From NCBI RefSeq assembly GCF_019175365.1, contig NZ_CP059572.1:6882001-6946000 (forward strand): a stretch of 64,000 nucleotides of DNA, given 5' to 3'. Below, piece after piece: positions 16,520-52,203 of this stretch. Positions within the stretch are counted from its first letter, which is position 1; each line of letters begins with the position of its first letter. The notes under the pieces were generated by a model. The model searched no databases, was not told where the DNA came from, and saw only the letters and a program-made list of their open reading frames with translations. Position numbers and translations under genes: made by a program. The DNA comes from Actinomadura graeca (GTDB lineage: Bacteria; Actinomycetota; Actinomycetes; Streptosporangiales; Streptosporangiaceae).

Positions 16520-17788
16520 TCAGGCCCGCTTCGGGGCGGACGAGGTGAAGGCGACCGGCAGTTCCTTGAGCCCGTTGACGAAGTTGGAGCGGAGCCTGCG
16601 GGCCGGGCCCGCGGGGCGGATGTCGGGCATCCGGTCGAGGATCGCCTCGAACACGATCCTCAGGTTCAGCCGGGCGAGGTGGGTGCCGAGGCAGAAGTGG
16701 GGCCCGCCGCCGCCGAAGCCGAGGTGGAGGTTCGGGTCGCGGCCGGCGTCGAAGGAGAACGGGTCGTCGAAGACCCGCTCGTCCCGGTTGGCCGAGCCGT
16801 AGAACAGGACGACCTTGTCACCGGCGCCGATCCGCCTTCCGCCCAGCTCGGTGTCGGCGAGCGCCGTCCGGCGGAACAGGTTGACGGGGGTCACCCAGCG
16901 GACGATCTCCTCGACCGCCGTGGGCAGCAGGCTCCGGTCGGCCCGCAGCCGCTCCCACTGGTCGGGGTGCTGGAAGAACGCCTGCATGCCGCCCGCCGTC
17001 GCCGTCCGGGTGGTCTCGTTGCCGGCGATCGACAGCATGATCACGAAGAGCTGGAACTCCTCCTCGGTGAGGCGCGTCCCGTCCGCGCCGGGTCGCAGGA
17101 GCCTGGTCACGATGTCGTCCCGCGGGGTGGCCGCGCGGTCGCGTGCCAGCTCGCCCGCCCATCCGGCGAACTCGGCGGCGCACAGCTGCGACTCCGCCCG
17201 GTCGCCGATGAACTCGGGGTCGTTGAACGCGACGAGCCGGTTGGACCAGCGGAAGATCTGCTCGCGCTCCTCCAGCGGCGCGCCGAGCAGCTCGCAGATC
17301 GTGTACAGCGGCAGCGGCGCGGCGACGTGCTCCACGAAGTCGCACTCGCCGAGCGCGGCCGCCTCGTCGATCAGCCGGTCGCAGATCCCGCGGACGTGGT
17401 CCTGGAGCCGGGCGATCATCCGGGGCGTGAACCCCTTGTTGACCATGCCACGGAGCCGGGCGTGGCCGGGTGGGTCCTGGAACAGCATCATCTGCCCGTA
17501 GAGGGCGATGTCGTCGTCGGCGAACTCCTCGAACATCGCCGTCCGCGCGTGGGAGGAGAACAGCTCGGGGTGCCGCGACACATGGACGACGTCCGCGTGC
17601 CGGGTCACCGCCCAGAAGCCGGGCACGCCGTCGTTGGGGTCGGGGTGCCAGTGGACGGGGTCGTTGTCGCGCAGCCACGCGAACTGCCGGTGGGGGATGC
17701 CGCCGCGCTCGTAGACGCCCGGGTCGATGACGTCGATCTCAGGCGCCCGGGGGGACCGGGCGGGGACGGAGCGGATGTCGACGGCCAT
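16520..17788 (-). CDS. Cytochrome P450, CYP125/CYP142-like
   Basis: This 422-residue P450 has the I-helix motif AGNETTR, the K-helix ExxR (EEIVRW), and the heme loop FGGGGPHFCLGTHLAR. The heme loop, and the stretches MMLFQDPPGHARLRGMVNKGFTP and NRDERVFDDPFSFDAGR, are close to the CYP125/CYP142/CYP124 group. Those enzymes hydroxylate the terminal carbon of steroid side chains or methyl-branched lipids. A perfect palindrome lies 57 bp upstream of its ATG. A KstR-like regulator and a FadE28/29-type dehydrogenase pair elsewhere in the window support a steroid connection, although they are 33 kb away. Confidence 0.8.
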   Translation of the reverse strand: MAVDIRSVPARSPRAPEIDVIDPGVYERGGIPHRQFAWLRDNDPVHWHPDPNDGVPGFWAVTRHADVVHVSRHPELFSSHARTAMFEEFADDDIALYGQMMLFQDPPGHARLRGMVNKGFTPRMIARLQDHVRGICDRLIDEAAALGECDFVEHVAAPLPLYTICELLGAPLEEREQIFRWSNRLVAFNDPEFIGDRAESQLCAAEFAGWAGELARDRAATPRDDIVTRLLRPGADGTRLTEEEFQLFVIMLSIAGNETTRTATAGGMQAFFQHPDQWERLRADRSLLPTAVEEIVRWVTPVNLFRRTALADTELGGRRIGAGDKVVLFYGSANRDERVFDDPFSFDAGRDPNLHLGFGGGGPHFCLGTHLARLNLRIVFEAILDRMPDIRPAGPARRLRSNFVNGLKELPVAFTSSAPKRA

Positions 17789-22579: not shown

Positions 22580-22659
22580 CCTCGTCTCGTCCCGGCGTGA
22601 GGCGCGGAAGGTCGGTTAGCCTGGGCTCACCCTCCCCCCCGCGCCGGAGAGAGCCCGAG

Positions 22660-23700
22660 ATGTCCGCAGATGCCGACGAGCCCGTGTTCGACGACGACTT
22701 CATCAGGGGCGCCGCGTTCATCGAGCCGTCCGCGCGCGAACGCGCCAGGGCACCCGGGCGGATCGAGCGGGTCCGCGCGCGCCGGGCCGAGCGCAGGCGG
22801 CACCGGGCCCGCCGCCGCCTCGGGCGGGCGCGGCGGCGCGAGTTCCACGAGCCGAGCCACCGCGGGGCCGTAGTCCAGGTGATCGCCGGGGTGCTGGTGC
22901 TGCTGCTGGTCTCGACCGGGCTGTGGTGGTGGAATCGCCCCGGCGACCCCGCCGCCCTCCCCGCGCCACCGGCGATCGTCCCCGTGCCCGCCCCGACCGG
23001 CGGCGTCCCGCCCGCCGACCCGTTCGCCGGGTCGCCCGCCGCCTCCTACGCCGACGGTGAGGCGGGCCTGCGGATGCCCGGGCCACGGGCGATGAACGGG
23101 CTGTCGGCCGCCGACCTGGCGCTCGCCTACGGCCGCGTCCGCAAGCTGATCGCCGCCGCGAACCTCGACCCCGGCACCGTCTTCGGCCGCAGCCCCGACG
23201 CGTTCGCGGCACTGCTCCACCCCGGGCAGCGCCGCGACTTCCGCGCGAACCTCGACCGCGCGGGCGAGGGCAACACCCGGGGCTGGCTGACGAGCTTCGC
23301 CGCGGGCACCGCCGAGCAGGCCGCCGAGACCGTCAAGGTGCACGGGACGGCGACAGCGGGCGAGGCGTCCGAGCGGGGCGCGGACGGGGTGCTGGTGAAG
23401 GCCGACCACCTGTTCGTGTACGCGGTCCGGAGTCCCGGGCGGCCCGAGACGGTGATCCGCGAGGTGGTCCGGAGGGTGACCGAGGTGTTCGTCCACCGCG
23501 AGGGCGGGACGGTGAGGCTGTGGGTCACCGGGACCGACACCTCGTCAGCGCCGTCCGCCTGCGACTACGGCGACGGTTTCGTCCACCCGCTGTACCCGGG
23601 GACGCCCGGCGGGACGCCGACCGGGAAGCCGGTGGACCCCTACGACCAGTCCGGCCCGGTCCGGCGTGACCAGGGCTGTGAGCAGACCGTCCGCGTCTGA
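22660..23700 (+). CDS. Single-pass membrane protein with large exported domain
   Basis: This 346-residue protein has a very basic cytoplasmic head (residues ~25-62, many Arg), one membrane span (~69-91, VVQVIAGVLVLLLVSTGLWWW), a Pro/Ala-rich linker and an extracytoplasmic domain of ~220 residues. That domain has no recognised family; it includes SPDAFAALLHPGQRRDF and a C-terminal CDYGDG and GCEQT that could form a disulfide. The ATG at 22660 is preceded by GGAGAGAG. Function unknown. Confidence 0.7.
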   Translation: MSADADEPVFDDDFIRGAAFIEPSARERARAPGRIERVRARRAERRRHRARRRLGRARRREFHEPSHRGAVVQVIAGVLVLLLVSTGLWWWNRPGDPAALPAPPAIVPVPAPTGGVPPADPFAGSPAASYADGEAGLRMPGPRAMNGLSAADLALAYGRVRKLIAAANLDPGTVFGRSPDAFAALLHPGQRRDFRANLDRAGEGNTRGWLTSFAAGTAEQAAETVKVHGTATAGEASERGADGVLVKADHLFVYAVRSPGRPETVIREVVRRVTEVFVHREGGTVRLWVTGTDTSSAPSACDYGDGFVHPLYPGTPGGTPTGKPVDPYDQSGPVRRDQGCEQTVRV

Positions 23701-23732: not shown

Positions 23733-24923
23733 TCAGCCGCGCGCGAGCGTCACGCGCAGCTCCGCGTACGACGGCACCAGGACGCGGCGTGCCGCGCGCC
23801 GGGACACGATCCGGTACGGGCGCCCGCCGGAGTGCAGCGTCGACAGCATCCGCGCGACCTGCGTGCGGGCCACGGCGGCGCCCAGGCAGAGGTGCCTCCC
23901 GCCGCCGAACCACAGCTGCCGGGTCTCGGGGACGTACGCGCGGTGGACGTCGAACGGCCCGGCGCCGTTGGTGGCGAGGTAGGTCAGCAGGAGGACCCGG
24001 TCGCCCGCGCGGAGCCTCCGGCCGTCCACGACGGCGTCGCGGGCGACGTGCCGGCCGATCACCGGCGCGGGGGCGGCGACGCGCAGGCCCTCGCGCACGG
24101 CGCCCTCCCTCAGTGACGGGTCGGCGAGCAGGGCCCGCTGCTGGCCGGTGTCGTGGAGCAGCGCGACCGTGCGGACCGTCCCGGACGCGCCGGTCTCGGT
24201 GCCCGCGATCACCAGCAGGGTGGCGAGCCCGCGCGCCAGGGGCAGGCCGAGGCCCATCGCGCGGCAGCGCCCGAGGAGGGTGCCGGGCCCGCCGTCCGCG
24301 TAGCCGCGCGGCACCCCGGTGGTGATCTCGTCCACGATCGCGCGGGCCCGCGCGATCGTCGCCGGGTCGAGGCCGGTCGAGGCGGTGGTGCCGAGGGCCA
24401 GCCCGGCGAGCCGCTCGCCCGCGCCGAACAGGTCCCGGTACGCGCGGTCCGGGCGGTCCGCGGGCAGGCCGAGCAGGTCGGCGACCATCCGCCCGGCCAG
24501 GACGCGGGCCGCGTCGGCGACGTCCACGGTGCCGCCGGCGGCCAGCCGCCGGGCCAGCTCGGCGTGATGCCTCCCCTGGGAGCGTTCGACCAGGTCACGG
24601 GCGGCGTCCTCGGTGAACAGGCCGCGGGCGCGGGTGCGGACCTCCGCGTGCCGGGCGCCGCCGAAGAACTGCGCCATCTCGTCGCCGAACAGCTGCGTCC
24701 ACAGATGCCCGACGCCGCCCTCCCCGTTCATCCCGAAGCGGTCGTGGTCGTTGAGGACGCGGCGCGCCAGGACGGGATCGGTCACCACCCAGCCGAGCCG
24801 TGGCACGCGCGTGATCGGGCCCGTGTGCCTGGCCGCCTGGAGGAGCGCGTAGAGCCCGCGGTTGCCCTGCCAGAGCAGGCGCGCTTCGTGCCGGGCCGCG
24901 TTCTTGGTCCTTGTGCTGGTCAC
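23733..24923 (-). CDS. Cytochrome P450, related to the one in the OleA/C/D-like operon
   Basis: This is a 396-residue P450 starting at a GTG. The I-helix reads VIAGTETGASG, the heme loop WFGGGRHLCLGAAVAR, and the C-terminus SRRAARRVLVPSYAEL. The last two closely match the P450 at 26968-28188 (WFGAGPHFCIG, TRRAAARDVLIPTY), so the two are paralogues of an uncommon family. The gene is divergent from the KAS III-like gene across a 240-bp gap that holds no other gene. It is probably part of the same pathway, hydroxylating the acyl chain or product. Redox partners are not nearby. Confidence 0.8.
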   Translation of the reverse strand: MTSTRTKNAARHEARLLWQGNRGLYALLQAARHTGPITRVPRLGWVVTDPVLARRVLNDHDRFGMNGEGGVGHLWTQLFGDEMAQFFGGARHAEVRTRARGLFTEDAARDLVERSQGRHHAELARRLAAGGTVDVADAARVLAGRMVADLLGLPADRPDRAYRDLFGAGERLAGLALGTTASTGLDPATIARARAIVDEITTGVPRGYADGGPGTLLGRCRAMGLGLPLARGLATLLVIAGTETGASGTVRTVALLHDTGQQRALLADPSLREGAVREGLRVAAPAPVIGRHVARDAVVDGRRLRAGDRVLLLTYLATNGAGPFDVHRAYVPETRQLWFGGGRHLCLGAAVARTQVARMLSTLHSGGRPYRIVSRRAARRVLVPSYAELRVTLARG

Positions 24924-25163
24924 TCCGCGATTGTGCCGGGCGGCGCGGCCGTCCCGACACCGCGATGGCCTATGAACCGGATGAGTGGTAGTACTCACGG
25001 CGAACCGGGTTACAACGCCCATGGGATGTTCCGTAAGGTCTCCCTGTCCGGGGACGGCAGGGGTCGGCGAACCTTGGTCCGACCAGGCACGAGGCGGCCG
25101 GACGGGCGGACGGGGCCGCCGCCGCGCCGCCGTCCACGGAGCACGAGGAACCGGGGGACACCC

Positions 25164-26189
25164 ATGAGAGCCCGCATCACGGCCGTCGCGGCGCACCTGC
25201 CCGCGCGGACCGTCACCAGCGCCGAGGTCGAGGCCAGGATCGCGGCCGAGAGCGCCGTCCCGCCCGGATCCGGGGGCGGCGGCTACCGGCCGCCGCCGAC
25301 GATCGTCGAGCGGCTGACCGGCATCCGCCGACGGCACGTCATGCGCGACGACGAGCAGGCGTCCGACCTGGCCGTCGCCGCCGCGCGCCGCGTCCTCGGC
25401 GAACGCGGCGCCGTCCCCGGGAACCTCGATCTGCTGATCTTCGGCTCGGCGTCCCAGGACCTCGTCGAGCCCGCCACGGCGCACATCGTCGCCGCCAAGC
25501 TCGGCGCCGCGTGCCCGGTGTTCGACGTCAAGAACGCGTGCAACAGCTTCCTGAACGGCCTCCAGATGGCGGACGCGCTGATCCGCACGGGCCAGCACGA
25601 GCGCGTGCTGGTGTGCACGGGGGAGAGCCCGTCCCGCGCGATCCGGTGGAAGGTCCGCGACCGCGCGCAGTTCGCGGACGCGTTCGCCGGCTACACCCTC
25701 TCCGACGGCGGCGCCGCGATGCTCGTGGAGGCCGCCCCGGACGGCGGGATCTTCTACCGCGACTTCGCGGCCGTCTCCAGCGCCTGGCGGATCGGAACGC
25801 TCCCGGGTGGCGGGTCGATGCACCCGCGCGACCCCGAGCGCGGCTACTTCAGCGGCGACGGGCGTCGGCTGAAGGACGCGTTCGTCGCCGGTGGCCCCGA
25901 GCTGTTCGACACCGCGCTGAAGAAGACCGGGCTGGCCTGGGACGACTTCGCGGTCATCGCCGTCCACCAGGTGACCCTGCCGTACCTGGAGACGCTGCGG
26001 GCGACGCTCGGCATCCCGGCGGACCGGCTGGTCGTCACGCTCCCCGAGCACGGCAACACCGCCTCGGCGAGCCTGCCGCTCCAGCTCGCGACCGCGCTCG
26101 CCGAGGGCCGCTGCCGGCCGGGCGACCGGATCGCGCTGGCCGGGCTCGCCGGGGGCATCAGCCTCGGCGTCGTCTTCGCCGAGCTGTGA
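25164..26189 (+). CDS. OleA-like KAS III/thiolase-fold condensing enzyme
   Basis: This 341-residue thiolase-fold enzyme has its triad at Cys126 (KNACNSF), His268 (AVHQV) and Asn298 (EHGNTAS). Glu102 (QDLVEPATA) lies 24 residues before the Cys, close to the spacing of the Glu that acts as base in OleA. OleA joins two fatty acyl-CoAs head to head to give a 2-alkyl-3-keto acid. FabH would be ~320-330 residues and lack the linked ligase and SDR. Assignment to OleA rests mainly on co-occurrence with OleC-like and OleD-like genes. GGGGGA precedes the ATG. It heads an operon of five genes with 1-4 nt junctions. Confidence 0.75.
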   Translation: MRARITAVAAHLPARTVTSAEVEARIAAESAVPPGSGGGGYRPPPTIVERLTGIRRRHVMRDDEQASDLAVAAARRVLGERGAVPGNLDLLIFGSASQDLVEPATAHIVAAKLGAACPVFDVKNACNSFLNGLQMADALIRTGQHERVLVCTGESPSRAIRWKVRDRAQFADAFAGYTLSDGGAAMLVEAAPDGGIFYRDFAAVSSAWRIGTLPGGGSMHPRDPERGYFSGDGRRLKDAFVAGGPELFDTALKKTGLAWDDFAVIAVHQVTLPYLETLRATLGIPADRLVVTLPEHGNTASASLPLQLATALAEGRCRPGDRIALAGLAGGISLGVVFAEL

Positions 26190-26218
26190 GCGGGCGCGCT
26201 GTGACCGACAGGGTGACC

Positions 26219-26971
26219 ATGCGGCTGTGGGTCGTCATCCCCGCCTACGACGAGGAGCGCTCGATCGGCGCGACGCTGCGGCGCCTCGCCGGGCAGACCG
26301 ACACCGGCTTCGCGCTCGTGGTGGTCGACAACGGCAGCACCGACGGGACCGCGCGGGTCGTCCGGGAGTTCGCCGCCGGGCACCCGTCGATGGACGTCCG
26401 GATCGTCGCGGAGCCGGAGAAGGGCACCGGCGCCGCCGCCGACACCGGCGTCCGGCACGCCATCGCCGCGGGCGCGACGCACATCGCCCGCACCGACGCC
26501 GACTGCCTGCCGGACCGCGGCTGGGTGGCGGCGGTGAAGCGGGCCTTCGGCGAGGGCCTGGAGATGGTGTCCGGCCCGCTGCGCCCCCGCACCGACGAGT
26601 TCCCGCTCAAGTTCTGGGAGCGGCGCCTGCTGCCCGCCGTGATCGACGTCGCCGCGCTGTTCGGGCGGTTCCGGCCCGGCAACCAGGACCCGTCCTTCCT
26701 CGGCCCGTACGTGATGATGCCCGGCTGCAACGTCGCGATCACCGCCGGGCTGTACGAGCGCGCGGGCGGCTTCCCGCGCACCCGCATCGAGGACGTCCAC
26801 GAGGACCGGGCGCTGGTCAACCGCGTCCGGCGCCTGACGTCGGCCTACGGGCTGCGCGAGGACGTGGCCGTCTACGGCTCCGTCCGGCGTCTGCGCGCGT
26901 TCGGGCTGGTCAGGACGCTCGGCTGGTACGCCGACCACCGTTACCGCCCGGCCGTCGTGGACATCCGGTGA
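26219..26971 (+). CDS. GT2-family glycosyltransferase
   Basis: This is a 250-residue GT-A enzyme. WVVIPAYDEERSIGATL and VVVDNGSTDGTARVV form the nucleotide-binding half, RTDADC is the metal-binding DxD-type motif, and EDVHEDRALVNRVRR lies in the acceptor region. A terminal membrane span is not obvious. The ATG at 26219 follows AGGGTGACC; GTGs at 26186 and 26201 are alternatives. Its place between the OleA-like gene and a P450 suggests that the cluster's product, or a hydroxylated intermediate, is glycosylated. This is unusual for ole-type clusters. Confidence 0.8.
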   Translation: MRLWVVIPAYDEERSIGATLRRLAGQTDTGFALVVVDNGSTDGTARVVREFAAGHPSMDVRIVAEPEKGTGAAADTGVRHAIAAGATHIARTDADCLPDRGWVAAVKRAFGEGLEMVSGPLRPRTDEFPLKFWERRLLPAVIDVAALFGRFRPGNQDPSFLGPYVMMPGCNVAITAGLYERAGGFPRTRIEDVHEDRALVNRVRRLTSAYGLREDVAVYGSVRRLRAFGLVRTLGWYADHRYRPAVVDIR

Positions 26972-28188
26972 ACGCCGTCGAATCGCGTGCACGCCGTGGA
27001 CGCCCCGTGCTCACCGGGGACCGTGCCGCCGCCTGGGAACGGCGGCTCTACCTGGCCGCGCACCCGGTCGCGTACCCGCTGCTGCGCGGCATCGCCCGCC
27101 GCGGCCCCGCCGTGCGCGTCCCGGGCGTCGGCGTGGTGGTCAACGACGCGGCCGCGGCCCGCGCCGTCCTCATGGACGGGGAGACGTTCCGCAAGGACGG
27201 GCCGGGCTCCCCGGCCGAACTGTGGACGCCGGTGCTCGGCCCGTCCGTCCTGCTCAACATGGAAGGCGACGCGCACCGCGCGCTCCGCCGCCGCCTGGCC
27301 GACCTGTTCACGCCGTCCTACGCTGCGGCGCTGTGCTCCCGCGTGCTGTCCGCGCCGCTGGAGCGGCTCGCCGACCGGCTGGCGCGCGGCGCGGCCGTCG
27401 ACCTGGTCGACGCCTCCCGCGTCATGGCCGGCGCGGTGATCGGCGAGGTCATCGGCCTGGACGCGCGGGACGAGGCGGCCTACCGCGCCCTGTTCGAGCG
27501 CGGCGAGCGGATCGTCTCGATGATCTCGCTGCGGACGCGCCGGCTCTCCCCGCCGCAGGTGGCGCGGGCCCGCGCGGTGCTGGACCCGCTCGGCGACATC
27601 GCCGCCGCGTCCTACGCCGCCGGGGACGAGACCACCGTGATGGGGCGGATGCGCGCCCTCGGCCTGTCCCCGGACGAGGCGCGCGGCGCCGCCGGGGCGT
27701 TCTTCCTCACCGGCACCGAGACCGTCGCGACGCTGCTGCCCCGCCTGATCGCCCTCCTCGCCGACTCCGGGCAGCTCGGCCGCGTCGCCGCCGACCCCGG
27801 CGGCCTCCTCGACCGGGCCGTCGAGGAGGCCATGCGCGCGGCGACCCCGACGCCGGTCATGCTGCGCAGCGTCCACCGCCCCGCCGCCGTGGCCGGGGTC
27901 GCGGTCCGGCCGGGCGACCGCGTCCTCATCGCCACGCACAACTGCTGCCGCGCCCTCGGCCCGTTCGACCTCGACCGGCCGCACCCGCCCGAGCTGCGCC
28001 GCCTGTGGTTCGGCGCGGGCCCGCACTTCTGCATCGGCTATCCGCTCGCCATGGCCGAGATCCGGCTGGTCGCCCGCACCCTGCTCGCCGCCACGCCGCT
28101 GCGGATCACCCGCCGCGCCGCCGCCCGCGACGTGCTGATCCCGACCTACCGGCACCTGGCCGTCCGCTCGGAGGGGAGCGCGCCGTGA
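26968..28188 (+). CDS. Cytochrome P450 in the OleA/C/D-like operon
   Basis: This is a 406-residue P450 whose GTG overlaps the preceding stop. The I-helix reads FFLTGTETVATLL, the ExxR is EEAMRA, and the heme loop WFGAGPHFCIGYPLA. It is a paralogue of the divergent P450 at 23733-24923. The operon position implies oxidation of the long-chain acyl intermediate or of the final compound, creating a site for the glycosyltransferase next to it. Its stop overlaps the start of the ligase gene. Confidence 0.8.
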   Translation: MNAVESRARRGRPVLTGDRAAAWERRLYLAAHPVAYPLLRGIARRGPAVRVPGVGVVVNDAAAARAVLMDGETFRKDGPGSPAELWTPVLGPSVLLNMEGDAHRALRRRLADLFTPSYAAALCSRVLSAPLERLADRLARGAAVDLVDASRVMAGAVIGEVIGLDARDEAAYRALFERGERIVSMISLRTRRLSPPQVARARAVLDPLGDIAAASYAAGDETTVMGRMRALGLSPDEARGAAGAFFLTGTETVATLLPRLIALLADSGQLGRVAADPGGLLDRAVEEAMRAATPTPVMLRSVHRPAAVAGVAVRPGDRVLIATHNCCRALGPFDLDRPHPPELRRLWFGAGPHFCIGYPLAMAEIRLVARTLLAATPLRITRRAAARDVLIPTYRHLAVRSEGSAP

Positions 28189-29699
28189 CACTGATCCGGG
28201 CCCTGCTGGACCAGGCGGGGCGCACGCCCGGCCACGTCGCCCTCGTCGCCGGGGACGGCGCGGAGCTGACCTACGGGGAACTGCGGCGGCGGGTCCTCGC
28301 CGTCCGCCACGGGCTGCTGTCGGGCGGGCTCGCGCCGGGGGACGGGGTCCTGTTCTCGGTGCGGCCCTCGCCGGAGTCGCTCGTCCTGGCGCTGGCGGTC
28401 GTCGCGGCGGGCGGCGTCGTGGTGTTCGCCGACCCCGGGGCCGGGCCCGCGATGTTCACCGCGCGGCTGCGGCTGGCCCGCCCGCGCTGGTCGGCGGCCG
28501 AGTCGGTCCTGTACGCGGGCAGCAGGCTGCGGCCGGTGCGGGCGTACGCGCGGCGGCGCGGGCTGCTCCTGCCGGACCTCGGTGACCTGGAGGTGCCCGG
28601 CGGGGGGCCGATGTCGCACGTCCACGTCGGGCGCCGCCTGCCGGGCGTCCCGCGCGGGTCGCTGTCGTTCGCGTCCCTGGCGCGGGGCCCTGCGCCCGAA
28701 CCGGACGACGACGGCGACCCGGGCGCGCCCGCCGCCGTGATCTTCACCTCCGGGACCACGGACGACCCGCGCGCGGTCGTCCACACCCAGGGCTCGCTCG
28801 CGGCGGCGCTCGGCCTGTTCCGGGAGCGGATGCCGCTCGGCCCCGGCGACGTCGTGCACACCGACCAGCTCATGCTCGGGCTGCCCACGCTGATCTCCGG
28901 TGCCCGCTGGTCGATGCCGCCCCCCGGCTGCGCGCCCGCGGACTTCGCCCGGATGCTGCGCGGGCGCGGCGCCACCCACACCTTCTGCGTGCCCGCCCAC
29001 CTCGCCGAGATCCTGGACGCGGCGCCGACGCTGCCGCCGGGGCTGCGGCACGTGCTGCTCGGCGCGGCGCCCGCGCCCGCCGGGATCCTGCGGCGCGCGA
29101 TCGCCGCGGCTCCGACGGCCGAGGTCCTGTCGGTGTACGCGATGACGGAGATCCTGCCCGTCGCCATCGCGTCGGCGCGGGACAAGCTCGCGCACACCGC
29201 GTCCGGCGCGGGCGGCGACCTCCTCGGCGCACCGCTCCCCGGCGTCGGCGCGCGGCTGGCCGCGGACGGGGAGCTGCTGCTGTCGGGCCCCAACCTCTGC
29301 CGCGGCTACCTCGGCGCCGAGCCCCGCGGCGAACTGCCCACCGGCGACCTCGCGCGCCTGGACGAGGGGCGGCTCGTCCTGGTCGGCCGCAAGAAGGACA
29401 TGCTGATCCGCGGCAAGTTCAACCTCTACCCGGGCCTGTACGAGCCCGCCATCGCCGCGCTCCCGGACGTGGCGGACGCGGCGATCGTCGGCGTCCCCGA
29501 CCCCGGGACCGGGGACGAGGAGGTCGTCCTCGCGGTGGTCGGCCCTCCCGGCCTGCCCTCCCGGCTGCGCCGTGCCCTCCCCGACGTCATCGACCACGAC
29601 GCGCTCCCGGACCGGATCGTCGTCCTGGACGGGCTGCCCCGCTCCGGCCGCACCCGCAAGCTCGACCGGGACCGGCTCCGCGAGCAGGTCGCCCGGTGA
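28185..29699 (+). CDS. OleC-like AMP-dependent ligase (beta-lactone synthetase type)
   Basis: This 504-residue adenylate-forming enzyme has the P-loop IFTSGTTDDPRAVVHTQGS (~185-205), A5 motif YAMTEILPVA (~317), TGDLARLDEGRLVLVGRKKD and the terminal Lys loop GRTRKLDRDRL (~489). VRPSPESLVLALAVVAAG and the A5 wording resemble OleC, which closes 3-hydroxy acids to beta-lactones, more than acetyl- or fatty acyl-CoA ligases. It starts at a GTG overlapping the P450 stop. It could also be a fatty acid-AMP ligase; the OleA-like and OleD-like neighbours favour OleC. Confidence 0.75.
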   Translation: MTLIRALLDQAGRTPGHVALVAGDGAELTYGELRRRVLAVRHGLLSGGLAPGDGVLFSVRPSPESLVLALAVVAAGGVVVFADPGAGPAMFTARLRLARPRWSAAESVLYAGSRLRPVRAYARRRGLLLPDLGDLEVPGGGPMSHVHVGRRLPGVPRGSLSFASLARGPAPEPDDDGDPGAPAAVIFTSGTTDDPRAVVHTQGSLAAALGLFRERMPLGPGDVVHTDQLMLGLPTLISGARWSMPPPGCAPADFARMLRGRGATHTFCVPAHLAEILDAAPTLPPGLRHVLLGAAPAPAGILRRAIAAAPTAEVLSVYAMTEILPVAIASARDKLAHTASGAGGDLLGAPLPGVGARLAADGELLLSGPNLCRGYLGAEPRGELPTGDLARLDEGRLVLVGRKKDMLIRGKFNLYPGLYEPAIAALPDVADAAIVGVPDPGTGDEEVVLAVVGPPGLPSRLRRALPDVIDHDALPDRIVVLDGLPRSGRTRKLDRDRLREQVAR

Positions 29700-29795
29700 G
29701 GGGGACGCGGTGAGGGGGACGCGGTGAGGGGGACGCGGTGAGGGGGACGCGGTGAGGGGGACGCGGTGAGGGGGACGCGGTGAGGAGGGAGACGC
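29695..29795 (+). repeat. 14-bp tandem repeat forming a ladder of overlapping mini-ORFs
   Basis: There are six perfect copies of GGTGAGGGGGACGC (29695-29778), then a 17-bp variant GGTGAGGAGGGAGACGC. Each unit supplies a purine-rich ribosome site and a GTG. Each GTG opens a five-codon frame (GTG AGG GGG ACG CGG TGA) whose TGA overlaps the next unit's GTG. The first unit contains the ligase stop, and the last leads into the GTG of the SDR. Confidence 0.9.
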
Positions 29796-29796
29796 G

Positions 29797-30732
29797 GTGA
29801 GGATCGCGGTGACGGGGGCGTCCGGGTTCGTGGGCGGCGCGGTGTGCCGGGCGCTGGCGGGCCGGGGCGTCACCACCTGCGGATTCGGGCGCCGGACGAA
29901 CGTGCCGGGGGAGCACCTGGGCGGCGCCCGGTACCGCACATGGGACCTGACCCTCGGCCCGCTCGAAGATCCCCCCGACGTCGACGCCGTCGTCCACTGC
30001 GCGGGGAGCGTCACCGACTGGGGCCCGGCCGCGGAGGTGTTCGCCGGGAACCTCACCGGGACCCGCAACGCGCTGGTGACCTTCCCCGGCGCCCGTTTCG
30101 TCCATGTCAGCACGGCCAGCGTCTACGACCCGTTCCGGCCCGGCGTCATGGTCACCGAGGACGAGGCGCCCGTCGCCCGCTACCTCAACGCCTACGGCGC
30201 GTCGAAGGCGGCCGCCGAGCGCGCGGCCCTGGCCCGGGGGGCGATCGTGCTGCGGCCCCACGCCGTCTACGGGCCGGGCGACACCACGCTGCTCCCGCGC
30301 GTCCTGTCCGCGGTGCGCGGCCCGGTCCTGCCCGCCGTGGGCACCGGCCGGCAGCGCGTCAGCCTCACCTCGATCGCGAACCTCGTCCAGGCGTGCGTGC
30401 TGGCGGCGACCGGGCCGGTCGCCTCGGGCGTCTTCAACGTCGCGGACGCCTCGCCGGTCACGGTCGACGACGCGCTCCGGGCGCTCCTGCGCGAGCGCGG
30501 CGTCCGCGCCAGGCCCGTCTACGCCCCCGCCCGCCTCGCCATGCCCCTGGCCACGGCCGTGGAGGGCGCGTTCCTGCTGGCGCGGCGTCCACGGCCCCCG
30601 CGCCTGACCCGGTACGCCGTCGGGCACCTCGCGGTCGAGCGGACCCTCGACATCGGCGCCGCGCGCGCGGTCCTCGGCTATGCCCCGCATGAGACGAGCT
30701 TCGCCGGGGCCGCCGGCTGGTCGTCAACCTGA
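29797..30732 (+). CDS. OleD-like NAD(P)-dependent reductase (extended SDR)
   Basis: This 311-residue extended short-chain dehydrogenase has VTGASGFVGGAVCRAL as the dinucleotide site, a Ser in STASVY, and the Y133-x3-K137 pair (YGASK). RPHAVYGPGDTTLLPRVL and the tail RLTRYAVGHLAVERTLD, then ARAVLGYAP, parallel OleD and 3-beta-HSD-type reductases. OleD reduces 2-alkyl-3-ketoacids to 3-hydroxy acids, the substrate for OleC. The GTG start overlaps the TGA of the last mini-ORF in the repeat. The stop lies inside the first operator of the next gene. Confidence 0.8.
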   Translation: MRIAVTGASGFVGGAVCRALAGRGVTTCGFGRRTNVPGEHLGGARYRTWDLTLGPLEDPPDVDAVVHCAGSVTDWGPAAEVFAGNLTGTRNALVTFPGARFVHVSTASVYDPFRPGVMVTEDEAPVARYLNAYGASKAAAERAALARGAIVLRPHAVYGPGDTTLLPRVLSAVRGPVLPAVGTGRQRVSLTSIANLVQACVLAATGPVASGVFNVADASPVTVDDALRALLRERGVRARPVYAPARLAMPLATAVEGAFLLARRPRPPRLTRYAVGHLAVERTLDIGAARAVLGYAPHETSFAGAAGWSST

Positions 30733-30770: not shown

Positions 30771-31502
30771 ATGACGGATCCCCTCCAGGCGACCGGCCAG
30801 GTCCGCCTCGACGAACTGATCGACGCCATCAAGAAGGTGCACTCCGACGCCCTCGACCAGCTCACCAGCGCGGTGATCGCCGCGGACCACCTCGGCGAGG
30901 TGGCCGACCATCTCATCGGCCACTTCGTCGACCAGGCACGGCGCTCCGGCGCGTCCTGGACCGACATCGGCAAGAGCATGGGGGTCACCAAGCAGGCCGC
31001 CCAGAAGCGGTTCGTCCCCAAGGCGCATCCGGCGGACCTCGACCCGTCCCAGGGGTTCTCCCGGTTCACCCAGCGCGCCCGGAACGTCACGATCGGGTCG
31101 CAGAACGAGGCCCGCGCGGCGGGCAACGACCAGATCGTCCCCGCGCACCTGGTCCTCGGCCTGCTCGGCGAGCCGGAGGCGCTCGCGGCCAGGGCGGTCG
31201 TCGCGCAGGGGGTGGCGCTCGACGCCGTCCGCGAGGCCGCCGCCGCCGTGCTGCCCCCGGCGGCCGGCCAGGTCCCCGAGCTGATCCCCTTCGACCAGGA
31301 CGCGAAGAAGGTCCTGGAGCTGACCTTCCGCGAGGCGCTGCGCCTCGGCCACAACTACGTCGGGACCGAGCACATCCTGCTCGCCCTGCTGGAGTTCGAG
31401 GACGGCACCGGGACGCTGTCCGGCCTCGGCCTCGGCAAGGACGCCGTGGAGGCGACGATCACCGAGGCACTGGACGCCATCGCGGCCCGCCCGCAGGCGT
31501 GA
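30771..31502 (+). CDS. Clp N-domain protein with helix-turn-helix, probable autoregulator
   Basis: This is a 243-residue protein. Residues ~1-90 are helical and include the helix-turn-helix SWTDIGKSMGVTKQAAQKRF. Residues ~95-243 hold a ClpC-type N-domain repeat pair (ARAAGNDQIVPAHLVLGLLG, ALRLGHNYVGTEHILLALLE). There is no AAA+ domain, so it is not a chaperone ATPase. Such stand-alone proteins probably use the Clp-N part as a sensor. Two palindromic sites overlap its own promoter, so autoregulation is likely. Confidence 0.8.
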   Translation: MTDPLQATGQVRLDELIDAIKKVHSDALDQLTSAVIAADHLGEVADHLIGHFVDQARRSGASWTDIGKSMGVTKQAAQKRFVPKAHPADLDPSQGFSRFTQRARNVTIGSQNEARAAGNDQIVPAHLVLGLLGEPEALAARAVVAQGVALDAVREAAAAVLPPAAGQVPELIPFDQDAKKVLELTFREALRLGHNYVGTEHILLALLEFEDGTGTLSGLGLGKDAVEATITEALDAIAARPQA

Positions 31503-31540: not shown

Positions 31541-32437
31541 ATGGAGACCCTCATGAAGGCCGACGGGGTGGAGCTGTGCGCCGAGACGTTCGGTGATCCG
31601 GCCGACCCTCCGCTCCTCCTCATCGGCAACACCATGCTCACCTGGCCCGGCGGCCTGTGCGCGCGGCTGAGCGCGTTGCGCCGGTTCGTCGTCCGCTACG
31701 ACCTGCGCGGCACCGGGCGGTCCACCGGCGCCGGCGAGGGCGCCCCCCGCCACACCCTGCGGGACCTGGTCGCCGACGCGGCCGCCCTGCTGGACGCGCT
31801 CGGCCTGCCCCGGGCGCACGTCGCGGGCTTCGGCGTGGGCGGCTGGATCGCCCAGCTCCTCGCGCTCGACCACCCCGGCCGGGTCACGACCCTCACGCTG
31901 GTCGCGGCCCGGCCGACCGCGCCCGGCCCGGCCGACCCCGACCTCCCCGAGCACGCCCCGGAGGTGATGGCGCACTTCATGGCCCCGCCGCCCGTCGACT
32001 GGTCCGACCGGGCGTCCGTCGTCGCGTTCATGGTCGAGAACGCGCGCCACCTCGCGGGCCCGGCGTTCGACGAGGCCGAGGCGCGCGAGCGCGCCGAGCG
32101 GATCGCCGGCCGCACCGTGCTCCCGGACCCGGCGTCCCCGGACGGCGACCCCGGCGCGGCCCACCGCGCGGACCAGATGGCGGCCGGTTTCGCCGAGCTC
32201 GACAGCGGTGATCGCTGGCGCGAGCGGCTCGGCGGCATCACCGCGCCCACCCTGGTCGTCCACGGGGAGGACGACCCGTTCTTCCCCCTGGGCAACGGAC
32301 GCGCCCTCGCCGCGGAGATCCCCGGCGCGCGCCTGGTCACCGTCCCCGGGATGGGCCATGGGCTGCCCCGCGCGGCATGGGACGTGATCGTCCCCGCGAT
32401 CCTCCAGCACACCTCCGGCGCCGCCGCGGCCGGATAA
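31541..32437 (+). CDS. Alpha/beta hydrolase-fold protein lacking the nucleophile Ser
   Basis: This 298-residue protein has the order and spacing of alpha/beta hydrolases of the RdmC/DnrP esterase type (ETFGDPADPPLLLIGN oxyanion strand, RYDLRGTGRS, HGEDDPFFP acid, GMGHGLP histidine). The nucleophile elbow reads AGFGVGG, so Gly98 (GGC) stands where G-x-S-x-G needs Ser. The Asp and His are kept. It may be a binding protein or use another mechanism, or the gene may be decaying. It is not OleB, which needs an Asp nucleophile. It lies 38 nt after the Clp-N gene. Confidence 0.8.
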   Translation: METLMKADGVELCAETFGDPADPPLLLIGNTMLTWPGGLCARLSALRRFVVRYDLRGTGRSTGAGEGAPRHTLRDLVADAAALLDALGLPRAHVAGFGVGGWIAQLLALDHPGRVTTLTLVAARPTAPGPADPDLPEHAPEVMAHFMAPPPVDWSDRASVVAFMVENARHLAGPAFDEAEARERAERIAGRTVLPDPASPDGDPGAAHRADQMAAGFAELDSGDRWRERLGGITAPTLVVHGEDDPFFPLGNGRALAAEIPGARLVTVPGMGHGLPRAAWDVIVPAILQHTSGAAAAG

Positions 32438-38325: not shown

Positions 38326-39674
38326 CGGTCGTCATCGAGAACGCCCACATCGTCACCGTGTCCGGTGACGAGCATCCCACCGGGCACATCGTCATCGACG
38401 GCAACCGGATCACGGCCGTCGGCCCGGGGCCGGCCCCGACCGCCGGGAGGGTCGAGCGGATCAACGGGCGCGGCTGCCTCGCCACGCCCGGCCTCGTCAA
38501 CACCCATCACCACCTCTACCAGTGGGCGAGCCAGGGCATCGCGACCGGCGGCACGCTGTTCGAGTGGCTGACCACGCTCTACAAGCCCTGGTCGAAGATG
38601 GACGCGGAGATCGCCGGGGGCGCGGCGACCGCCGGCCTGGCGTGGCTCGCCAAGTCCGGCTGCACCACCAGCACCGACCACCACTACATCTTCCCCAAGG
38701 GGCGCGGCGACCTGTTCGCCGCCGAGATCGAGGCGGCCGCCGAGCTCGGCGTGCGCTTCCACCCCTGCCGGGGCTCGATGGACCGGGGCCGGTCCGACGG
38801 GGGGCTCCCGCCCGACGAGGTCGTCGAGGACCTCGACACGATCCTCGACGAGACCGCCGCCGCCATCGACCTGTACCACGACCCCTCGCCCGGCTCCCTG
38901 CTGCGCGTCGCCGTCGCGCCCTGCTCCCCGTTCTCCGTCAGCCGCGACCTGCTGACCCGGTCGGCGGAACTGGCACGCGCCAGGGGCGTCCGGCTGCACA
39001 CCCACCTCGCCGAGACCCTCGACGAGGAGGAGCACACCTCCGAGCAGTTCGGCATGACGCCGGCCGAGTACATGGACTCGATCGGCTGGCTCGGCCCCGA
39101 CGTCTGGCTCGCGCACTGCGTCCACCTGCACGACGCCGACGTCAAGCGCCTCGCCGAGACCGGCACGGGCACCGCGCACTGCCCGAGCTCCAACGCCCGC
39201 CTCGGCTCCGGCATCGCCCGCGTCGCGCACCTGCTGGAGGCGGGCGCGCCGGTCGGGCTGGGCGTGGACGGCCCCGCGTCCGCCGAGCTCGTCCCCCTCG
39301 CCGGGGAGATGCGGCAGGCGATCTACATGCAGCGCGCCCGCTACGGCCCGGACGCGCTGACCGCGCGGCAGGCCCTGGAGATGGCGACGCTCGGCGGCGC
39401 CCGCTGCCTCGGCCGCGAGGCCGAGATCGGCACCCTGGAGCCCGGCAAGCTCGCCGACATCGCCCTGTGGCGGCTCGACGGGTTCCACGCCGCGATCGAC
39501 GACCCGGTGGTCGCCCTCACGTTCGGGCAGACCCCGCCGCTGCGGCGGCTGTTCGTCGGCGGCCGGACGATCGTACGGGACGACGCCCTCGTCACCGTCC
39601 CCCAGGACGAGGCGGGACGACGCGGCGCCGCCGCGCACCGCCGCCTCATGACACTCGCGGAGGAGGTCCTCTGA
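38322..39674 (+). CDS. 8-oxoguanine deaminase-type amidohydrolase
   Basis: This 450-residue amidohydrolase has metal ligands in [23 protein letters not shown], and [10 protein letters not shown]. The sequence around [24 protein letters not shown] positions ([10 protein letters not shown]) is typical of 8-oxoguanine deaminases, which turn 8-oxoguanine into urate; atrazine chlorohydrolase and guanine deaminase are distant relatives. It is inserted between the small and large subunits of the dehydrogenase. This feeds urate from oxidised guanine into the same pathway. Confidence 0.85.
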
Positions 39675-41992
39675 TGGCGGCCCCGGTGAAGAGCCCGAGC
39701 CACGTCGAAGCGCCCGGACTGGGCGGCGTCGGCGCCAGCACCCTGCGCCCGGACGGCACCCTGAAGGTCGCGGGCGAGTTCGCGTACGCGTCCGACCTGT
39801 GGATCGACGGGATGCTGTGGGGCGCGACGCTGCGCAGCCCCCACCCCCGCGCGCTGATCCGCTCGATCGGCATCGGCGAGGCCGTGGCGATGCCCGGCGT
39901 CCGCGCCGTCCTCACCCACGAGGACGTGCCGGGCCGCAAGATGTTCGGCATCGACCACACCGAGGACCAGCCCGTCCTCGCCATCGACCAGGTCCGGCAC
40001 CAGGGCGAGCCCGTCGCGCTCGTCGCCGCCGACCACCCCGAGATCGCGCGCCGCGCGCTGAAGGCGATCACGGTCGAGTACGAGGTGCTGGAGCCGATCA
40101 CCGACCCCCGCGCCGTCGTCGCCGACCCCGAGGGGATGAAGGTCCAGGACCGCGGCGGCATCACCCGCCACCAGCCCGTCGTCGTCGGCGACGTGGAGGC
40201 GGCGCGCGCGGCGGCCGAGGTCGTCGTGACGTCGGAGTACGAGGTCGGCATCCAGGACCAGGCGTTCCTCGGCCCCGAGGCGGGCCTGGCGATCCCGTCC
40301 GAGGACGGCGGCATCGACCTGTACGTGTCCACCCAGTGGATCCACAACGACCTCCGGCAGATCGCGCCGTGCCTCGGCCTCGCCGAGGACCAGGTCCACA
40401 TGACGCTCGCGGGCGTCGGCGGCGCGTTCGGCGGCCGCGAGGACCTGTCGATGCAGATCCACGCGGGCATGCTCGCGCTGCGCACCGGCAAGCCGGTGAA
40501 GATGTCCTACAACCGGTACGAGTCGTTCTTCGGGCACGTCCACCGGCATCCCGCCCTGATGCGGTACGAGTACGGCGCCACCTCCGAGGGGCGGCTGCTG
40601 TACGCCGACGTCGAGATCATCCTGGACGGTGGCGCGTACACCTCGTCCACCATCAACGTGACCGGCAACGCCGCCTCGCTCGGCGTCGGCCCCTACGAGA
40701 TCCCCAACATCAGGATCGACGCCTACGGGGTCTACACGAACAACCCGCCCTGCGGCGCGATGCGCGGCTTCGGAGCGGTCCAGGCGTGCTTCGCCTACGA
40801 GTCGATGATGGACAAGCTCGGCGCCGCCTGCGGCATCGGCCCGGTCGAGATCCGCCGCCGCAACGCCGTCTCGCAGGGCTCCCGGCTCGCGACCGGGCAG
40901 ATCATCGAGGCGCCCGCGCCGCTCGCCGAGATGCTGACGCGGCTGGAGGCCATGCCGATGCCCCCGGCCCTCGACCCGGCCGACCTGCGCCACCTGCCCG
41001 GCGGGGTCTCCCAGACCACCCACGGCGAGGGCGTCGTCCGCGGTGTCGGCTACGGCGTCGGGATCAAGAACATCTGCTTCTCCGAGGCGTTCGACGACTA
41101 CTCCACCGCCCGCGTCCGGCTGGAGGTCATCGGCGGGGAGGCGACCGCGCTCGTCCACACCGCCGCCGCCGAGGTCGGGCAGGGCCTCGTCACGCTCCAG
41201 GCGCAGATCGCCCGCACCGAGCTCGGCGTCCAGAAGGTCACCATCGCCCCGGCCGACGACCGGGTCGGCGACGCCGGCTCGTCCAGCGCCTCGCGCCAGT
41301 CCTACATGTCCGGCGGCGCGGTCAAGGCCGCCTGCGAGGCCGTCCGCGCCGAGCTGTTCGCGCGCGCCCGCCGCCGCCTCGGCACCGCCCGCGCCATCGC
41401 CGACCTCGACGTCGCCGGCGGCAAGATCATCTCACGGTCGGGCGGGGTGCTCGCCACGATCGAGGACGTCCTCGGCGACGCCGTCATCGAGGAGACCCGC
41501 GAATACCATCACCGTCCCACCGAGCGGATGGACCCCGTCACCGGCCAGGGCCGCAGCCACACCCAGCTCGCCCTCTGCGTCCACCGCGCCGTCGTCGACG
41601 TGGATGTGGACCTCGGCCTCGTCAAGGTGGTCGAGCTGGCCGCCGTCCAGGACGTCGGCAAGATCCTCAACCGGCTGTCGCTGGAGGGCCAGATCCACGG
41701 CGGCACCGCGCAGGGCCTCGGCCTCGCGCTGATGGAGGAGATCGTCGTGTCCGGCGGGCTCGTCCGCAACCCGTCCTTCACCGACTACCTCATCCCGACC
41801 ATCCTCGACATGCCGCCGATGCGGCTCGACATCCTCGAGAACCCCGACCCCGAGGCCCCCTACGGCCTCCGCGGCGCCGGGGAGCCGCCCACGCTGTCGT
41901 CCACCCCCGCCGTCGTCGCGGCCGTCCGCGACGCCACGGGCCGGGCGCTCACCCGCGTGCCGGTCCGCCCCGAGCACATCACGCTCGCATGA
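39674..41992 (+). CDS. Xanthine dehydrogenase molybdopterin-binding subunit
   Basis: This 772-residue large subunit has the first-domain motif [30 protein letters not shown] and [10 protein letters not shown] for the molybdopterin, and GAGEPPT near the end with the catalytic Glu. It hydroxylates hypoxanthine and xanthine to urate. Together with the FAD and 2Fe-2S subunits it forms a complete enzyme. It overlaps the deaminase stop by 1 nt (TGATG). Maturation proteins are not in the window. Confidence 0.92.
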
Positions 41993-50159: not shown

Positions 50160-50798
50160 TCAGGAGTCGGTGAGCAGGCGCGCGGCGGAGACCTCCAGCC
50201 GGGCCTGGATCTCCTCGGCGTCCGCATGCCCGCGCAGCATCTCGATCATCTCCATCGTCCAGACGCTGGTCAGGGCCCCGGCCACGACACGGCGCGGATC
50301 GTCGGCGGGGACGGTGGCGCCGGGGCCGGCGGCGGCGCGCAGCAGCAGCCCGGTCATCCGGTCGCCGAAGTCGGTCCTGACGTCCGACAGCAGCAGCGAG
50401 CGGATCAGCGCCTCCGCCAGCTCGGGCTCGCGCATCAGGCCGCGGGTGGCGCGCATCAGGACGTCGACGGCGCGCTGCGGGGCGGTCCCGGCGCGGGGCG
50501 GGCGGCGCTCGATGCTGCCCTCCAGCAGGTCGAGCTCCTCGCCGACCACCGCGACGACGAGGTCCATCTTCGAGGGGAAGTAGCGGTAGAGGGTGCCGAG
50601 CGCGACCCCGGCACGCTCGGCCACGGTCCGCATCTGCATCGCCTCGACGCCGCCGCGCGAGGCCAGCGCGGCGGCGGCCTGCACGATGCGCCTGCGGCGC
50701 TGGTGCTGGCTGCGGGAACGGACGCTCTGGCCCGCGGTCCGCCCCGGCGCGGGCCGGCCCTGGGGCTCGTCCCCGGTCACCGTCGGATCTGCGGTCAC
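50160..50798 (-). CDS. KstR-like TetR-family regulator
   Basis: This is a 212-residue TetR protein. The helix-turn-helix region RRRIVQAAAALASRGGVEAM and QMRTVAERAGVALGTLYRYF and PSKMDLVVAVVGEEL closely follow mycobacterial KstR, the repressor of sterol catabolism. GTG start after GGAAGGA. Two sites with AACnnGTT-type cores lie in the gap to the divergent acyl-CoA dehydrogenase genes, which fits control of both directions. The ligand in KstR is a steroid CoA thioester; here that is inferred. Confidence 0.82.
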   Translation of the reverse strand: MTADPTVTGDEPQGRPAPGRTAGQSVRSRSQHQRRRRIVQAAAALASRGGVEAMQMRTVAERAGVALGTLYRYFPSKMDLVVAVVGEELDLLEGSIERRPPRAGTAPQRAVDVLMRATRGLMREPELAEALIRSLLLSDVRTDFGDRMTGLLLRAAAGPGATVPADDPRRVVAGALTSVWTMEMIEMLRGHADAEEIQARLEVSAARLLTDS

Positions 50799-51096: not shown

Positions 51097-52203
51097 GTGG
51101 ACTTCGACCTGGACGGGGCCCAGCGGGAGCTGCGCGGCCTCGCCGCCGACGTGCTCGCGCGCGAGGCGGCGCCGGCGCGGCTGGAGGCGTTCGAGAGGGG
51201 CGGCGCCGCCTATGACGGCGCGACCTGGCGGGCGCTCGCGCGGACCGGGCTGCTCGGCGCCGTCCTGCCCGCGGACGCGGGCGGCGCGGGACTCGGCCCG
51301 GTCGGGATGGCGGTCCTGCTGCGGGAGGCCGGCGCGCGGGCCGCGCCCGTCCCGCTGCACGCCTCGCTCGCGCTGGGGGCCGCGCCGATCGCCCGGCACG
51401 GCACTCCGGGCCAGCGTGCCCTGCTCGCGCCGCTGGCCGGGGGCACGGGCGTCCTGACGGGCGCCTACCGCGAGGTCGGGCCGCCCGGGCGGGTCGCCTC
51501 GACGGCCCGCGCGGACGGCGGCGGCTACGTCCTGGACGGGGTGAAGACGTTCGTCCCGTACGCGCGGGAGGCGTCGGTGATCCTCGTGCCTGCGCGCGTC
51601 GAGGGCGCGGGCGTCGGGGTCTTCCTGGTCGAGCCGCCGGAGGTGACGATCACCCCGCAGCCGTCCGCGACGACCGAGCCGCTGTCGCGCCTCGCGCTCG
51701 GCGGGGCCCGGGTCGGACGCGAGGCGCTGCTCGGCGGCGCCGCCGACGGCGCCGCCTGGGACACCCTGCGCCGCTCCGCCGTCGCGGGCATCGTCGCGCT
51801 GTGCTCCGGCGTCATCAGGGGCGCCCTTGACCTCACCAAGGAGTACGTCAAGGCGCGCGAGCAGTTCGGGCAGGCGCTCGCGGAGTTCCAGGCCGTCACG
51901 ATGCAGATCGGCGACGTCTACATCGCCAAGCGCGCGCTGGACGTGGCGATGTGGGCGGGGGTGTGGCGCCTCGCCGAGGACGCCGACGACGTCGACGAGG
52001 TCCTCACCGTCGCCTCCTACAACGCGTGCGGCCCCGTCGTGAAGGCCCTCTACACCTGCCAGCACCTGCACGGGGGCATCGGGCTGGACGTCACGTACCC
52101 GCTGCACCGCTACTTCGCGTGGGCCAAGCACTGCGGGCACCTGCTCGGCGGCGCGGACGACCGTCTCGACGCCCTCGGCGCGCTCGTCGCCCGGGAGGCG
52201 TGA
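51097..52203 (+). CDS. Acyl-CoA dehydrogenase, FadE28-like subunit
   Basis: This 368-residue protein starts at a GTG with GGGAGCGG upstream. The C-terminal region HLHGGIGLDVTYPLHRYFAW and the shortened middle resemble FadE28 (ChsE1). That protein pairs with FadE29 as an alpha2beta2 dehydrogenase acting on the shortened steroid side chain. It joins the next gene by TGATG, so the two subunits are made together. FAD binding depends on both. The KstR-like gene and operator upstream support a sterol or similar CoA substrate. Confidence 0.8.
   Translation: MDFDLDGAQRELRGLAADVLAREAAPARLEAFERGGAAYDGATWRALARTGLLGAVLPADAGGAGLGPVGMAVLLREAGARAAPVPLHASLALGAAPIARHGTPGQRALLAPLAGGTGVLTGAYREVGPPGRVASTARADGGGYVLDGVKTFVPYAREASVILVPARVEGAGVGVFLVEPPEVTITPQPSATTEPLSRLALGGARVGREALLGGAADGAAWDTLRRSAVAGIVALCSGVIRGALDLTKEYVKAREQFGQALAEFQAVTMQIGDVYIAKRALDVAMWAGVWRLAEDADDVDEVLTVASYNACGPVVKALYTCQHLHGGIGLDVTYPLHRYFAWAKHCGHLLGGADDRLDALGALVAREA

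Follow-up and report, generated by a model that had tools for sequence, protein, structure and literature searches.

Gene Content of the Locus

We analyzed a six-gene locus at positions 23733-30732 of a 64,000-nucleotide stretch of Actinomadura graeca DNA (the whole stretch, referred to below as the window) as a candidate lipid pathway. The source genome is 9.0 Mb in size, and the outer ends of the locus are the ends of its first and last genes. Genes were called by codon usage, and domains were assigned by Pfam and NCBIfam profile searches. These calls confirmed the gene set given in an original prediction made from the DNA letters, namely a condensing enzyme, a GT2 glycosyltransferase, two cytochromes P450, a ligase, and a reductase. 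The features of the locus are as follows.

23733-24923, - strand: cytochrome P450 (P450B), a divergent, optional member; PF00067 27.0 bits (cut-off 22.8); heme motif FGGGRHLCLG
24924-25163, strand not applicable: intergenic stretch of 240 bases separating P450B from the OleA-type gene; likely promoter region, judged from the gap
25164-26189, + strand: OleA-type KASIII (KAS), putative head-to-head condensing enzyme; Glu-Pro at E102-P103; C126, H268, and N298; placed with OleA-like enzymes in the tree
26201-26971, + strand: GT2 glycosyltransferase; PF00535 73.7 bits; structure model with mean pLDDT 79.4; best PDB matches GT2-type sugar transferases
27007-28188, + strand: cytochrome P450 (P450A), core member; PF00067 40.1 bits; heme motif FGAGPHFCIG
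28185-29699, + strand: AMP-forming ligase; PF00501 156.1 bits (longer reading frame); placed by trees; signature N-x-YPGLYEP
29797-30732, + strand: OleD-like NAD(P)-dependent reductase (SDR); best NCBIfam model OleD NF042422, 123.5 bits (cut-off 580); GASGFVG and YGASK motifs

Successive genes on the + strand are separated by 11, 35, -4, and 97 bases, and this tight spacing is consistent with a single operon. The prediction of one operon therefore holds for the five + strand genes and fails for P450B, which lies on the - strand across a 240-base gap and is a divergent neighbor. The two P450s share 40% identity over 384 residues and both have the heme-Cys motif, so that the earlier description of them as paralogous is fair.

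Distribution of the Cassette

The gene cassette recurs in many soil actinobacteria. Of the 35 other genomes of the genus that were searched, 32 encode a KAS 78-94% identical to that of the locus, and three (G018, G027, and G028) lack it. Among 250 genomes of the family, 70 had a match to the GT2 protein at E ≤ 1e-25, and among 396 genomes of the phylum at least 3 had one at E ≤ 1e-20, the source genome being counted in both cases; the phylum figure is a lower bound because about six candidates were scored per genome. Named GTDB genomes yielded 408 stretches encoding some GT2 relative. The best 80 of these were kept and read for cassette membership, and they came from Streptomyces, Kitasatospora, Actinacidiphila, Actinoplanes and kin, and Actinospica.

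All five core genes were present in 98 of 117 loci, each picked by its KAS or GT2 match: 15/15 in the genus, 13/20 in the rest of the family, and 70/82 of the Streptomyces-type loci (for L062 and L063 this label is inferred from the named-genome loci). Such co-occurrence is not a chance grouping. Five of the 19 incomplete loci are halves of a split cassette or their kin (L226, L227, L228, L233, and L231), and a number of the rest are on contigs whose end is close to the match (e.g. L079, L090, L101, L104, and L222). The gene order, a survey of which the original prediction had proposed as a check, differs between lineages, being KAS-GT2-P450-ligase-SDR in the family of the window and KAS-GT2-ligase-(GT2)-P450-SDR elsewhere. 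The second GT2 gene between ligase and P450 is found in 27 of the 82 Streptomyces/Kitasatospora/Actinoplanes-type loci, and in L224 the ligase gene is on the opposite strand. P450B is present in 10/15 loci of the genus and 4/20 other loci of the family. In a survey of neighboring genes at 110 loci, an ABC-transporter ATPase was the sole non-core family found in more than three lineages (11 loci, at a median distance of 3.6 kb), and was taken to be simply a large common family.

The cassette is split in six genomes of two genera (G516 and five genomes of genus g321) with nothing lost. In 6/6 cases, with both halves read (L226-L228, L233, and L248-L255), KAS and ligase are at one site and P450B, GT2, P450A, and SDR at the other. 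Retention of the full set, P450B included, despite this separation favors one pathway. In the five g321 genomes the ligase on the KAS side is 777-807 residues long and carries a fused N-terminal GT2 domain; the corresponding ligase of G516 has 513 residues and no GT2 fusion. Four GT2-ligase fusions, three of them named Thermomonospora, are among the ligase relatives listed, together with a 510-residue ligase from a Thermomonospora metagenome-assembled genome for which no GT2 domain is listed.

The Condensing Enzyme

The best PDB sequence matches of the locus KASIII are 3-oxoacyl-ACP synthase 3 entries. The fourth-ranked match, 3fk5, is named in the match lists only as a 3-oxoacyl synthase III, and we take it to be the Xanthomonas campestris OleA. 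Residues Glu-102 and Pro-103 align with a Glu-Pro pair of 3fk5, and the Cys-His-Asn triad is present as Cys-126, His-268, and Asn-298. According to PMC7064751, OleA is set apart from other thiolases by Glu117 followed by Pro in X. campestris numbering; the pair occurs in all but two of the OleA proteins of that study, and the Glu is essential.

Glu-Pro was found in 96/96 cassette KAS sequences (the window and 95 loci) and the Cys-His-Asn triad in 95/96, the exception, L092, being an overlong gene call. The pair was also present in 5/5 OleA-like KAS proteins of the same genus encoded outside the cassette (four linked to a polyketide synthase (PKS), plus L058) and in three of four KAS proteins from further ole or OleB-like loci, where the remaining sequence is incomplete. 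It was present in 0/7 of the other KASIII proteins of the source genome, where eight were found by family with the cassette enzyme included. In a phylogenetic tree the five OleA-like proteins of the genus formed one clade with the cassette KAS proteins from the family of the window (support 99/98), so that the cassette KAS proteins are not a single clade separate from OleA. At 47% identity, the PKS-linked OleA of L054 is as near to the locus KAS as the Streptomyces-type cassette KAS is. The original prediction of a head-to-head condensing enzyme was upheld by the Glu-Pro hallmark and by the tree, and OleA-type condensation, which would join two long acyl chains head to head without decarboxylation, is well supported by these residues and this grouping.

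The Reductase and Glycosyltransferase

The SDR contains the cofactor motif GASGFVG and a YGASK (YxxxK) motif, and reduction of the OleD type by this protein is plausible, as judged from these motifs and from OleD being its best-scoring model. A fold search with the structure model of the GT2 protein returned general GT2 sugar transferases; the generality of these matches means that the fold search names neither the sugar nor the acceptor. In a tree comparing the window GT2 with the second Streptomyces GT2, which was built without an outgroup, three groups joined one another.

The Ligase Groups beside OleC

The locus ligase contains adenylation motifs, including the C-terminal lysine. The motif N-x-YPGLYEP was present in 99/99 cassette ligases scoring above 400 bits and in 0/7 OleC proteins compared; nine weaker cassette sequences, mostly broken pieces, were left out of this count. 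Phylogenetic analysis used OleC proteins (n = 8) named by their ole (oleABD) neighbors, and an outgroup made up entirely of enzymes from the source genome, with no characterized ligase in the trees. From 91 adenylating matches in that genome, 25 loci were taken and searched for single enzymes; eight of them yielded none after a length and motif filter, two duplicates were dropped, and 17 enzymes were kept. In the resulting tree 20 cassette ligases and the 8 OleC proteins were split from these 17 (support 99/95). A second tree, with ten nonribosomal peptide synthetase A-domains added and one long-branch row dropped, split the same two groups from 26 adenylating enzymes (100/98). Within this grouping, cassette ligases formed one clade and OleC another. 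Grouping of the ligase with acyl-CoA ligases had been named in the original prediction as a finding that would speak against it; no grouping with the sampled acyl-CoA ligases of the source genome was seen, and the nearest group was OleC.

Across the phylum, the Xanthomonas-type OleC model matched in 1/149 genomes at E ≤ 1e-100, with none above its cut-off, and this match (L191/L211) was included as an OleC. When 246 genomes from across the phylum were searched for P0002 at E ≤ 1e-30, with up to six candidates scored per genome, the search returned the window and one Streptomyces-type cassette and no near relative outside a cassette. The closest relatives of the ligase are from Actinomadura. 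On this phylogenetic and motif evidence, the ligase is assigned to a clade that is predicted to be sister to OleC and is marked by a distinct signature, and not to OleC proper.

No OleB Found

The original prediction also held that OleB, the fourth enzyme of the olefin pathway, was missing, and this was borne out for both cluster and genome as far as candidates were scored. An oleB gene elsewhere had been named there as a second finding that would speak against the prediction, and none was seen within the same limits. With the OleB of the PKS-oleABCD cluster L054 as the query, and with scores obtained for 40 of the 57 first-look candidates, the source genome gave only weak alpha/beta-hydrolase matches, the best at E = 2.8e-11. 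One of the 117 cassette loci had a weak match (66.6 bits), and the others had none. Among 36 genomes of the genus, matches of at least 65% were found in G021 (from which the query was taken), G026, G002, and G024, the carriers of the PKS-ole cluster; G012 had a partial match of 59% and G007 one of 40%. In 10/12 further cassette genomes no match at E ≤ 1e-30 was obtained, while G478 had one of 68% and G481 one of 39%.

If an OleB acted from elsewhere in the genome, the end product would be an olefin, oxidized and glycosylated. In favor of this, OleB is present in four relatives within the genus, each time in a separate PKS-oleABCD cluster. Nevertheless, the weakness of the hydrolase matches in the source genome, the lack of a second Glu-Pro protein among its eight KASIII enzymes, and the lack of an OleB match at E ≤ 1e-30 in 10/12 of the further cassette genomes make this explanation very improbable.

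Proposed Pathway

We consider the locus to be a conserved actinobacterial lipid cassette, and the chances are about even that it encodes a full pathway ending in a probable beta-lactone. In the presumed order of steps, the OleA-type enzyme would condense a pair of fatty acyl thioesters head to head into a 2-alkyl-3-keto acid, from which the SDR would make the 2-alkyl-3-hydroxy acid. A chain may then be hydroxylated by one P450 or by both, at a position that is presumed to serve as acceptor, the GT2 enzyme transferring a putative sugar onto the hydroxyl so made. The ligase would activate the carboxylate with ATP, most likely for attack by the 3-hydroxyl with closure of a beta-lactone in the manner of OleC. 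Since no OleB would act on it, the lactone (or another activated product) would persist. We are fairly confident of the condensed and glycosylated backbone; that the beta-lactone is the final form is an evenly balanced proposition. The same steps are proposed for another cluster in PMC7064751.

Several observations weigh against this reading. The separation of OleA and cassette KAS from other KASIII proteins is weak in the tree (88/43), with long branches. The SDR score of 123.5 bits is well below the OleD cut-off of 580, although the OleD of L054 (390 bits) also falls below it; the predicted OleD-like character is thus retained as to best model and motifs and not as to score. The ligase scores 81 bits with the NCBIfam OleC model, against a cut-off of 900 bits for this Xanthomonas-type model, and 145 bits with a generic long-chain acyl-CoA ligase model. 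The OleC cut-off is narrow, since three OleC proteins named by context also miss it (583, 576, and 497 bits). In addition, the OleC motif RHN[SA]K, which was taken from our own alignment and not from a published source, was found in 0/99 cassette ligases; it is present in 5/7 OleC proteins compared, the remaining two having RHHSK. The cassette ligase retains KDM..R..N.YP, a stretch that it shares with ordinary acyl-CoA ligases. The OleC-like ligase of the original prediction therefore stands as to its place beside OleC in the trees and not as to motif or cut-off. With the ligase outside OleC by both measures, closure of a beta-lactone is a prediction from kinship. Of the three steps that were predicted to give a beta-lactone, condensation is well supported and reduction plausible, and lactone closure is unproven. 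The original interpretation as a whole is partly supported.

The properties of the ligase just described would also suit an enzyme acting upstream, as an acyl-CoA (or acyl-ACP) ligase that feeds a special acyl chain to the OleA-type enzyme. The product would then be a glycosylated, oxidized 2-alkyl-3-hydroxy acid, with its carboxylate free or esterified and no beta-lactone. The canonical adenylation motifs, KDM..R..N.YP included, and the top NCBIfam score are those expected of such an enzyme, and the ligase stays with KAS, apart from the SDR, in 6/6 split genomes, an arrangement that would suit an upstream ligase as well as the pathway above. However, the ligase groups beside OleC, apart from all 17 single adenylating enzymes that the source genome contributed to the trees, and we regard the upstream role as possible but rather unlikely.

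A different fate for the carboxylate is conceivable. After P450 hydroxylation, one or two GT2 enzymes might build a mono- or disaccharide, and the ligase might close the carboxylate onto a sugar hydroxyl to give a macrolactone or ester. The second GT2 gene in 27/82 loci of the Streptomyces/Kitasatospora/Actinoplanes type is consistent with this sophorolipid-like scheme, as is the GT2-ligase fusion in 5/6 split genomes, which would couple glycosylation with carboxylate activation; the enzymes of yeast sophorolipid synthesis may offer a parallel. We know of no precedent for a ligase that joins a carboxylate to a sugar in this way, which counts against the scheme. Moreover, the kinship with OleC points to the beta-hydroxyl as the nucleophile, and the ligase of the split genome G516 has no GT2 fusion. 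The scheme is accordingly doubtful. A broader proposal seems about equally doubtful, namely that the product is a glycolipid of a new class and near genus-wide: a branched and hydroxylated, mycolic-acid-like 2-alkyl-3-hydroxy acid bearing one or two sugars, its carboxylate closed onto sugar or beta-hydroxyl by a new ligase family marked by N-x-YPGLYEP. In bacteria, such a compound would correspond to lactonic sophorolipid, and it would be a standing lipid of its producers instead of an occasional antibiotic, the latter view being based on the conservation of KAS in 32/35 other genomes of the genus.

Comparison with Known Systems

Lipstatin, a long-chain beta-lactone, is the parent of an anti-obesity drug. 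To our knowledge, GT2 and P450 genes are no part of either the lipstatin or the nocardiolactone cluster. The beta-lactone pathway favored here has in common with these clusters a condensing enzyme, a ligase, an SDR, and the lack of oleB, a likeness drawn from published descriptions and not from Nlt or Lst sequences: in PMC7064751 and PMC7413640 both clusters are oleACD without oleB and lead to a long-chain beta-lactone. With the oleABCD olefin pathway the locus shares an OleA-type KAS (Glu-Pro and Cys-His-Asn), a ligase beside OleC, and an OleD-like SDR; it differs in lacking OleB, in having GT2 and P450 genes, and in a ligase that belongs to a separate clade without RHNSK.

A closer counterpart has been described. 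The authors of PMC7064751 (mBio 2020) report a cluster of Actinoplanes atraurantiacus encoding OleA, a glycosyltransferase, OleC, a P450, and OleD, with no candidate oleB in the genome, and propose a hydroxylated, glycosylated beta-lactone as its product. The OleA of this organism showed activity in a p-nitrophenyl ester assay, and its purification was possible despite precipitation. As far as the published description allows comparison, the A. graeca locus has the same five kinds of protein, its ligase being OleC-like, and differs in having a P450 gene before the ligase gene and a second, divergent P450. One glycosyltransferase is named in that paper, whereas several Actinoplanes loci in our set carry two (e.g. 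L118, L120, and L132). The original prediction had been unable to match its product to a described one; since a cluster of this make-up and the same product prediction were published in 2020, the core idea is already in print. No report of the product of such a cluster was found in the open-licence papers searched, PMC7413640 and PMC7158056 among them, and a phrase search for a glycosylated beta-lactone returned no paper.

As far as these searches show, the new elements are the breadth of the cassette, its near genus-wide presence, the signature and kinship of the ligase, the variants with a second P450 or second GT2 gene, the splitting of the cassette, and the GT2-ligase fusion. If the cassette yields a glycosylated long-chain beta-lactone, it would represent a class without a described product in the literature searched. 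The carriers include named Streptomyces, Kitasatospora, and Actinoplanes, plus Actinomadura (from the ligase relatives), and are thus easy strains to examine. The signature of the ligase and its place beside OleC also offer a handle on adenylating enzymes that move between CoA ligation and lactone closure.

Separate oleABCD clusters of the same genus are located at L054:5567-17978, L055:5247-17461, L056:1197-13690, and L057:5858-18111. Unlike the cassette, these have OleB, and no matching GT2 or P450 was found there. A PKS of about 2,500 residues lies beside oleABCD in three of the four; in L056 the gene calls give the PKS in pieces. Perhaps PKS-made chains feed the olefin pathway at these loci.

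Surroundings of the Locus

Other features of the window are as follows.

16520-17788, - strand: CYP125-type P450; 527.6 bits to entry CYP125MRCA
22597-23700, + strand: membrane protein, upstream of the cluster; weak SCO2583 family match, 93.1 bits (cut-off 205)
30771-31502, + strand: small protein with a Clp_N domain (two stretches), downstream of the operon; in 4/15 loci of the genus
31541-32437, + strand: alpha/beta hydrolase; nearest models macrolide esterases, 221.6 bits (cut-off 420)
39674-41992, + strand: xanthine dehydrogenase subunit D-like protein, downstream of the cluster; 780.2 bits (cut-off 783.65)
50160-50798, - strand: KstR-like regulator; 137.7 bits (cut-off 280)
51097-53375, + strand: acyl-CoA dehydrogenase pair
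58920-60275, + strand: EgtB of ergothioneine synthesis; 431.7 bits (cut-off 360)

The CYP125, KstR-like, and acyl-CoA dehydrogenase genes give the locus steroid-degradation-like surroundings. The cassette might accordingly be part of this region and modify sterols. The CYP125-type P450 and KstR-like regulator within the window suit this explanation, as does a steroid 3-ketoacyl-CoA thiolase that adjoins the half-cassette in L226. However, in the survey of neighbor families present in at least 8 of the 110 loci, the thiolase-type family was confined to the family of the window, and the P450 family found near the cassette reached beyond it in a single Kitasatospora locus. A role in sterol modification is therefore highly unlikely.

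The Clp_N-domain gene and the alpha/beta hydrolase gene were rejected as members of the cluster, as they are present in only 4/15 and 6/15 loci of the genus, respectively. The hydrolase was also ruled out as an OleB (BLASTP E = 0.096 against an OleB). Its nucleophile elbow reads G-x-G-x-G, with no serine there, and is the same in 6/6 orthologues. Genes of the xanthine dehydrogenase type, similar in appearance to that of the window as judged by their first residues, adjoin the half-cassette in L227.

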